Shown: in pieces, positions 5,229 to 61,356 of the stretch
Layout of the letters: each line of letters starts with the position of its first letter
Position numbering within the stretch: the stretch's first letter is position 1
The notes under the pieces: generated by a model
The model's input: only the letters and a program-made list of their open reading frames with translations
The model's database searches: none
Told to the model about the DNA's origin: nothing
Translations under genes and position numbers: made by a program
Origin: an uncultured Bacteroidales bacterium
GTDB taxonomy: Bacteria > Bacteroidota > Bacteroidia > Bacteroidales > Bacteroidaceae
Direction: 5' to 3'
Assembly: GCA_902786925.1 (NCBI GenBank)
Contig: CADAEK010000001.1
Location: 62,001-126,000, forward strand
Length of the DNA: 64,000 nucleotides

Positions 5229-5239
5229 TCTATTTTGAG

Positions 5240-5386
5240 TTAGGAGTGAGGAGTTAGGAGTTAGGAGTGAGGAGTTAGGAGTTAGGAGTGAGGAGTTAGG
5301 AGTGAGGAGTTAGGAGTGAGGAGTTAGGAGTGAGGAATGAGGAATTAGGAATTAGGAATGAGGAATTAGGAATGAGGAATTAGGAG
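5240..5386 (-). repeat. 7-bp tandem repeat array, 21 units, in the radA leader
   Basis: Exactly 21 consecutive heptamers, all of the form TTAGGAG, TGAGGAG, TTAGGAA or TGAGGAA, occupy 147 bp and end 11 bp before the radA start codon. On the radA coding strand they read CTCCTAA-like. Immediately to the right (5387-5412) the pattern changes to TTCACCT-like words that are pyrimidine-rich on the plus strand, facing the divergent DUF3943 gene. Confidence 0.95.
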
Positions 5387-5426
5387 TTTCACCTTCTTCA
5401 CCTTTCACCTTGTCCTTACCGAAAGG

Positions 5427-22102: not shown

Positions 22103-22197
22103 AGTTAGGAGTTAGGAGTTAAGAGTTAGGAGTTAGGCTAACGCGATGCGTTCTATCCGCATGGCAAATCCTAACTCCTAACTTCTCACTCTTAACT
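22103..22197. repeat. Inverted heptamer arrays forming a hairpin upstream of asnS
   Basis: Heptamers of TTAGGAG type (22105-22139) are followed by a unique centre and then by the complementary array CCTAACTCCTAAC... (22170-22197), so the whole element can fold into a long hairpin. It begins 10 bp upstream of the asnS start and ends 4 bp before the stop codon of the upstream gene. Confidence 0.85.
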
Positions 22198-25748: not shown

Positions 25749-25944
25749 CGAAAACTTTGTCACACACGATTCTGTCGTGAAAGACTTTTTTACCTTTCGC
25801 AGAACTTCTTTCGCCTTCTGAGAAACAATCCTTGTATTTGTGATATAAACTGAAAAGAAAAGACTGTCTGGACAATGCTCATTCGTGTCCAAATATCAGC
25901 GAAACGAAGCACCGTCTCAACAGGCACTTCTTGTACCACAAAAT

Positions 25945-26009
25945 CGGTGTGACTCAGACCGGCATAGGCGGTGTGACTCAGACCGGCACCCTCGGTGTGA
26001 CTCACACCG
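25945..26009 (+). repeat. Triple palindrome array, site A (3 x 17 bp, period 24)
   Basis: Three 17-bp near-palindromes start at 25945, 25969 and 25993. Units 1 and 2 are CGGTGTGACTCAGACCG, and unit 3 differs by one base, which makes it symmetrical around its centre. The 7-bp spacers GCATAGG and GCACCCT differ from each other. The left flank contains CTTCTTGTACCAC, and the right flank TTTTCGAGGCTGTGGAAG. Site B (46569-46633) has the same layout and word. The gap 25658-26264 (607 bp, between divergent genes) holds this array, two promoter boxes and no gene I can support. Confidence 0.9.
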
Positions 26010-26211
26010 TTTTCGAGGCTGTGGAAGAGCGTCCAAAACGAGGCACGATGCGAGTAGCCCTAAGCGGCACTTATAGGGAATCCCACCTTATGAGGGCGCT
26101 GCATCTGCGCCTCACACGAATCGGGTTAACAAATAGCGGGCAATCTTTATTTTTTCCACACTTTTTCACCATTTTTTTAGTGTGTATGTACATTATTGTA
26201 TAATATTTTTA

Positions 26212-33647: not shown

Positions 33648-33712
33648 CAGCCATGATGCATGTGAGGCATGAAGAGGCTGCGTCATAAAATAGGCCTTGA
33701 CTACCTCTGAAG

Positions 33713-33781
33713 CGACGTGCCCCACATCGGTTGGCTGATGTGGGGCTCTACGACGAGCCGATGTGGGGCACGTCGTTTTTT
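33713..33781 (+). repeat. Triple palindrome array, site D, with terminator-like T-run
   Basis: Three 18-bp units start at 33713, 33735 and 33758. Unit 3 (CCGATGTGGGGCACGTCG) is the exact reverse complement of unit 1, and unit 2 shares the GATGTGGGGC core. Unit 1 can pair with unit 2 (10 bp) or with unit 3 (18 bp). The second pairing is followed directly by six T residues, so it should work as a terminator behind the araC-type gene. Flanks (left ACCTCTGAAG, right TTTTTTAGGATG) resemble those of sites A, B and C. Confidence 0.88.
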
Positions 33782-33904
33782 AGGATGTTGAACTTACGCC
33801 ATTTTAACACAGTCTCCCTCGATTTCCGGCCTTTATAATGCCCTAAAGATAATTTTGTGCTATCTTTGTAACATTTTATCCCATTATATATAAATAGGAA
33901 CACG

Positions 33905-46546: not shown

Positions 46547-46568
46547 CCCTCTTCCTGCACCACTTTGG

Positions 46569-46633
46569 CGGTGTGAGTCACACCGGCATGGTCGGTCTGA
46601 GTCACACCGCCACCATCGGTGTGACTCAGACCG
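46569..46633 (+). repeat. Triple palindrome array, site B (3 x 17 bp, period 24)
   Basis: Units start at 46569, 46593 and 46617: CGGTGTGAGTCACACCG (perfectly symmetrical around its centre), CGGTCTGAGTCACACCG and CGGTGTGACTCAGACCG. The 7-bp spacers are GCATGGT and CCACCAT. The third unit is identical to units 1 and 2 of site A, 20.6 kb away. The left flank CTCTTCCTGCACCAC and the right flank TTTTGGGGCTGTGGAAG also match site A. Confidence 0.9.
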
Positions 46634-46677
46634 ATTTTGGGGCTGTGGAAGCAAGGGAGAAGGCGGCATATCAACGA

Positions 46678-60792: not shown

Positions 60793-61028
60793 GTTATTTA
60801 TTCTCGACACCCACAAGAGATAAGGCAACAAAAATCCTCTGCTCCAGCATTTTCTGCTGCAGCAGGCCGTAAACTGAAAAAGCAAGATAACAACCTTTTT
60901 CGTACAATCCAAACAACTTGTGGGCAAAACGCACAAGTGTTAGCGGACAAGCCATCATTGTGTTACCGAGCAACTCATCATGGCATGACTGGGCAAACCA
61001 CAATGCACCCTCTTCCTGCACCTCTAAA

Positions 61029-61093
61029 CCGACCTCGTCGACGTCGGTTCACCGATGTCGTCGAGGTCGGTTGACCGACGTCGACGATGTCGG
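61029..61093 (+). repeat. Triple palindrome array, site C (3 x 19 bp, period 23)
   Basis: Three 19-bp near-palindromes start at 61029, 61052 and 61075. All have the form CCGAYNTCGWCGANGTCGG, with 4-bp spacers TTCA and TTGA. Unit 1 matches the reverse complement of unit 3 with one mismatch. The left flank (CTCTTCCTGCACC, then TCTAAA) is nearly identical to that of site B, and the right flank (TTTGGAGG) pairs with CCTCTAAA. The large gap 60793-61505 holds this array and the inverted repeats at 61357-61459, with no gene I can support. Confidence 0.88.
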
Positions 61094-61356
61094 TTTGGAG
61101 GGGATATTTAAGTCCTTGTATGAACTCACGAAAAAGAGGTTTATTTTTTACGAACACGAATTGCACGAATTACACGAATATGAAGCCTTTTCAAGGCTCT
61201 AAGATTGGTATAGATTCGTGTTCGTCTTAAAACATCGTGCCTGTGCCGAAGGCACCATCTGCTCAATCAGATAAAATCAGAGAAATCTGGTCAATCTGCG
61301 TAATCACCGCGAAGCGGTATGTTTTACATAACCGCCCCTCCAAATATATTTTTGAA

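Follow-up and report, generated by a model that had tools for sequence, protein, structure and literature searches.

A dispersed element of three adjacent palindromes in a genus of uncultured rumen bacteria

What is a row of three near-identical palindromes doing between two divergent genes, and does it belong to any known kind of bacterial repeat? We investigated such a row, site A (25926-26030), in a window of 64,000 nucleotides, the whole stretch of DNA that was analyzed. Site A is made up of three 17-bp near-palindromes, CGGTSTGASTCASACCG, spaced by exactly 24 bp and placed between two arms; the half-sites of the units are named a (CGGTGTGA) and b (CGGTCTGA).

25926-25944, no strand: left arm of site A, CTTCTTGTACCACAAAAT, an inverted copy of the right arm
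25945-25961, no strand: unit 1, palindrome CGGTGTGACTCAGACCG, half-sites a,b
25969-25985, no strand: unit 2, palindrome CGGTGTGACTCAGACCG, half-sites a,b
25993-26009, no strand: unit 3, palindrome CGGTGTGACTCACACCG, half-sites a,a
26010-26027, no strand: right arm of site A, TTTTCGAGGCTGTGGAAG

Three 17-bp palindromes with starts at 25945, 25969 and 25993, a 24-bp period and a position between divergent genes had been reported in a preliminary description of this DNA, and all of this was confirmed; both small flanking open reading frames are conserved in the sister species G010. The array is not a chance arrangement, because its unit pattern had 110 matches per strand in its own genome (G000; 2.59 Mb, 48 contigs) and none in the reversed control, and a word-free three-palindrome detector, which found about 200 distinct arrays in the examined DNA, found none in 1.1 Mb of shuffled sequence. 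The genome-wide scan that the preliminary description had called for was run and yielded 36 three-unit arrays of the site A type in G000, every period being exactly 24, together with a few solitary units that carry these arms. A second family in this genome, of the site D type (unit CCGAYSTCGWCGASRTCGG, period 23), occupies about 12 places.

The window holds three further sites of this kind.

33696-33792, no strand: site B, same plan as site A, word GTGCCCCAC, middle unit decayed
46551-46651, no strand: site C, units 46569-46585, 46593-46609 and 46617-46633, word of site A, arms present
61013-61109, no strand: site D, units 61029-61047, 61052-61070 and 61075-61093, word CCGAYSTCGWCGASRTCGG, period 23, arms present

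The spacing is 24 in sites A and C and 23 in site D, whose word is also written TCGWCGA. At the orthologous place of site B, G010 has the remnant of one unit only. A covariance model was trained on 24 period-23 arrays including their arms; site D was among these, and sites A, B and C were not. In the window, this model found exactly four places, namely D (E-value 7.5e-20), B (2e-12), A (4.9e-10) and C (1.9e-7). The four sites belong to one superfamily; the preliminary description had placed them on one plan. It had misassigned the words, however, giving A and B a common word and C and D one each: sites A and C share a word, and those of B (GTGCCCCAC) and D (TCGWCGA) differ. A shared orientation of all four sites, which it also stated, is meaningless, because each flank is the inverted repeat of the other, and the model indeed matched every site on both strands. 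The idea of conserved flanks around an exchangeable, threefold palindromic core held good, but the flank word CTTCYTGYACC alone showed no enrichment in the genome (23 matches vs 24 for the reversed control) and was dropped as a stand-alone marker. Other repeats occur in the window as well. Arrays of a 7-bp motif (GAGTTAG / GAGTGAG) lie at 5237-5390 and 22103-22197, with direct and inverted copies at several window places, and a 37-nt inverted repeat, 97% complementary, lies at 793-829 and 2131-2167, about 1.3 kb apart with an open reading frame (1016-1792) between; its copies may mark the two ends of a small mobile element.

We examined how widely the element occurs, all genomes being draft assemblies, metagenome assemblies among them. 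The word of site A was present in 8 of 120 relatives, all 8 in this genus; the matches listed in named genomes all came from metagenome assemblies of rumen or reticulum, classified under Bacteroidaceae, Prevotellaceae or Bacteroidales. According to the covariance model, the superfamily is abundant in 18 of the 45 species of the genus and absent from about 20; given this patchiness, the genus as a whole does not depend on whatever service the arrays may do the cell. The model matches outside the genus were three weak ones, in G046 only, and represent a plain 23-bp tandem array. This array, at a contig start (L378 84-180) in a genome of another genus, repeats GCGATGGCTCCGTCATCGGCAAG, with the same period and an unrelated word. 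The array elements had no match among plasmids, phages or viral contigs.

To what extent are the arrays maintained? We compared 33 orthologous array pairs of the site A type between G000 and G010, scoring the 14 fixed letters of each unit and 14 nt of the adjoining arms; a version of 27 pairs with alignments accompanies this comparison. Counting only pairs with a detectable array in both species, which biases the result somewhat toward conservation, 3 of 1386 fixed unit letters were changed (0.2%), whereas 39 of 462 spacer positions (8%) and 146 of 924 arm positions (16%) were. The half-site letter, a or b, was changed in 2 of 198 cases and the central base in 11 of 99, 10 of these 11 changes being C<->G. 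The pair G012 and G036 repeats the pattern (fixed letters 1/672, arms 82/448). Some "orthologous" pairs of lower identity are possibly chance pairings via arm repeats, and no conclusion draws on them. Since unit letters are nearly frozen while arms diverge, these are not decaying copies, and the comparison indicates that array units are under sequence-specific purifying selection at orthologous loci. Between G000 and G010, units were lost by exact 48-bp and 24-bp deletions. Departures from three units consisted of such reductions to one or two units and of one longer array in G007 (L107 14243-14400), a tandem array of more than three units with period 23 and GGTATGAGTCTTACC-like palindromes, which is the only clear upward departure from three.

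The arrays are not confined to gaps between genes, although the preliminary description had made "intergenic" a defining trait. Arrays of the site D type lie in frame within a glycerate kinase gene (PF02595) and a GSCFA-family gene (PF08885). The glycerate kinase and the GSCFA protein gain a strongly basic stretch (e.g., SVDRCRRRRSTDVDDV) from the in-frame arrays in L203 2043-3176 and L202 2152-3171. At the GSCFA place, 10 of 42 matching species have an array, and the filled alleles always hold three units and are 123 or 126 nt long, whereas the other alleles read have only 27-63 nt there. Four word classes were found at this place (TCGWCGA, a GGGG-centred word, GTGGGGCAC and GTACCCGAGGGGTAC), and filled alleles of the glycerate kinase place likewise carry four word classes at one position. 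Replacement also occurs between genes, where the word of site A in G000 faces that of site D in G036 (L053/L133) and the D word in G025 faces another word, E, in G013 (L363/L387), with several A/D and D/E replacements in all. Judged from sequence, orthologous places carry different words in different species, always with three units, so that the exchangeability of the core, first noted from site to site, extends to orthologous positions. On how words change, the signals are mixed: the glycerate kinase arrays of G000 (D) and G012 (E) have the same two spacers, which would favor in-place, point-by-point change, whereas at L247/L282 the core differs throughout despite 91% neighboring identity, which would favor exchange of the core as a whole.

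Both flanks are inverted arms that point outward and carry words in a 23-bp register. Measured outward from the center of the last unit, GAGG and GGAAG recur at offsets of 14, 37 and 60 and of 22, 45, 68 and 91, that is, in 23-bp steps, in both families, and fade beyond about 95 bp. Taken as a whole, then, the element is symmetric, an array in a roughly 23-bp register of which the three central members are palindromic. Terminal inverted repeats of a MITE would have fixed ends; the arms, inverted repeats themselves, fade outward in 23-bp steps, and a fixed end was not found. A separate intrinsic-terminator-like hairpin (e.g., AAGGGGCTGTGTCG...GACACAGCCCCTT) often begins a few tens of bases beyond the arms, in many arrays (e.g., L050, L053, L055). 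One genome, G015, has a sole element of 197 bp, 95% identical to a copy in G025, with nothing shared outside those 197 bp, and is otherwise free of covariance-model matches. Such a copy in a foreign context means that copies move, and the shared length suggests 197 bp as the size of the moving unit. The genes beside the G015 element, considered as a sign of an autonomous copy, encode no DNA-binding or transposase domain (Pfam), and no recurrent gene family, as a candidate transposase or binder, was found adjoining the arrays.

These observations lead to an explanation that is the most economical one and in which we place about as much belief as doubt: site A would be a copy of a genus-specific dispersed element of three adjacent predicted protein-binding sites, spread non-autonomously and kept by selection. 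The core of 63-65 bp would comprise exactly three adjacent sites, each of them an odd palindrome (17-19 bp) with two half-sites, and putative sequence-specific dimeric DNA-binding proteins would read the units, the words being their several specificities. We infer a protein reader because the central C/G freedom fits a dyad-symmetric site. Copies would have arisen by non-autonomous spread, and ectopic conversion or re-insertion among copies with shared arms may have exchanged their cores, with words turning over as the putative binding proteins diverge. Selection would retain the arrays since, when bound, they would be of use to the cell, chromosomal binding sites being their most plausible role; local operators are less plausible because convergent, tandem and divergent gaps all hold arrays (12 convergent, 16 tandem and 8 divergent among the 36 arrays of the site A type in G000). 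Protein sites of differing specificity and a non-autonomous mobile element, both proposed in the preliminary description, keep support and may both be true.

Could the element instead be purely selfish? A non-autonomous MITE- or REP-like element, whose units and arms are recognized by a putative transposase and whose conservation reflects transposition-competent copies, is possible though we doubt it. The dispersed, near-identical copies with few dominant array types agree with it, as do the presence/absence traits of a MITE, namely the 197-bp G015 copy in an unrelated context and the existence of two genes in both filled and empty form. The arms, inverted and with repeated 23-bp words, resemble the multiple transposase sites at transposon ends, and clade-specific words are also found in REP/RAYT pairs. 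However, in the 33 orthologous pairs the copies have stayed in place between sister species although their flanks have diverged, so the conservation is not due to recent jumps, and divergence in the arms, on which a transposase would depend, almost equals that in the flanks. Neither fixed ends nor a target duplication could be defined, the junctions of empty and filled alleles being too diverged to show one. Moreover, RAYT (Y1_Tnp, PF01797) was absent from G000, G010, G012 and G034, four of the five genomes richest in arrays of the site A type, and gave only a sub-cut-off match in G036; as mobilizer of the arrays it was rejected.

The composition of the arrays is itself restricted. In 114 perfect arrays of the site A type from five species, exactly two b among six half-sites occurred in 97 vs 37.5 expected under independence, although orthologues among the 114 are not independent and the counts overstate the number of events. 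In the own genome, 30 of 32 arrays had exactly two b half-sites. Few of the possible arrangements occur: four make up nearly all two-b arrays, and the commonest, aababa, accounts for 40 of the 114. Asymmetric units have a fixed central base, whereas in symmetric ones it is mostly free. It is conceivable, and we put it forward tentatively as rather unlikely, that the arrays form a new class of chromosomal element, an address system: a fixed triple operator with a 4:2 half-site grammar and a 23-24-bp register shared with the arms, its words swapped between species. Diversifying DNA-binding proteins would then read the words, and the code would be rewritten between species at conserved chromosomal addresses.

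The same composition bears on RNA hairpins, that is, transcribed stem-loops acting as bidirectional terminators, RNA-processing sites or RNA-protein sites, an option of the preliminary description that we now consider improbable. Sites B, C and D fold strongly (z -7.1 to -9.6) and site A more weakly (z -2.8), words differ by compensatory changes (28 pairs changed on both sides), T-tracts adjoin units, and arrays in tandem gaps are mostly closer to the 3' end. Nevertheless, sister species keep the exact unit letters, beyond what pairing alone would require, and the aababa arrays carry half-site mismatches that pairing within or between units does not repair. Furthermore, 8 of the 36 arrays lie between divergent genes, and the array elements had no Rfam match at gathering score. 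Local transcription operators of several regulons are very improbable: a 17-19-bp palindrome with a free central base resembles a repressor site, but with arrays in convergent, tandem and divergent gaps and within coding sequences, and with unrelated genes beside the window sites (adenylosuccinate lyase, DUF4923, GH2, peptidase M13, flavodoxin, CN_hydrolase, AraC regulator), these are not ordinary operators or terminators.

Short bacterial palindromic repeats are usually viewed as decaying selfish DNA, whereas this family is nearly frozen at orthologous loci, and at greater distance the whole word is exchanged with position and unit number kept. If proteins read the units, the arrays would be a natural record of a DNA-binding specificity and dozens of genomic sites changing together, and they may point to a putative new protein family in rumen bacteria.

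Among known systems, matS/MatP, SlmA, Noc sites and parS are palindromic protein sites dispersed on the chromosome, single and with one word per species; here, the arrays are of three, with several words per genome and a putative binding protein. CRISPRs have identical repeats and unique spacers of about 30 nt, whereas the spacers here are of 4-7 nt and recur between loci. The preliminary description had held the plan to be unlike REPs, CRISPRs and ordinary operators, and this was borne out. REP/BIME/REPIN sequences are short intergenic palindromes, clustered and of high copy number (PMC2817692, PMC3116915). The present arrays share with REP/REPIN the clustered short palindromes, many copies and clade-specific words but differ in always having three units, in orthologous copies that are frozen in sequence, in phased arms and in words exchanged at fixed loci; no RAYT occurs in four rich genomes, and no GTAG tag outside the units is constant in the arm consensus. 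BrickBuilt, a MITE of Porphyromonas gingivalis, is likewise from a Bacteroidales host, has a 23-nt periodicity and is intergenic, with 19 copies (PMC4596501). It consists of 1 to 23 direct repeats without spacers, with a long leader and tail (PMC4596501), whereas the core here is three palindromes, fixed in number and with exchangeable words. The element lacks the tested defining features of both REP/RAYT and BrickBuilt. CGTC-tagged palindromic repeats also occur in Bacteroidetes without a dedicated transposase and are single or dimeric hairpins with an unpaired CGTC at one end (PMC3733652); here, CGTC occurs solely as part of the D and E palindromes, and the array is triple. Rickettsia palindromic elements, about 150 bp long, are fused in frame within unrelated metabolic genes, as are some of the present arrays, and the available text of the review (PMC10969869) does not mention a tripartite core, phased arms or word exchange for them. 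The nearest known kinds are REP/REPIN, BrickBuilt, Rickettsia palindromic elements and CGTC repeats, beside which stands a previously undescribed element, scattered in dozens of copies over the genomes of uncultured rumen bacteria of a single genus.
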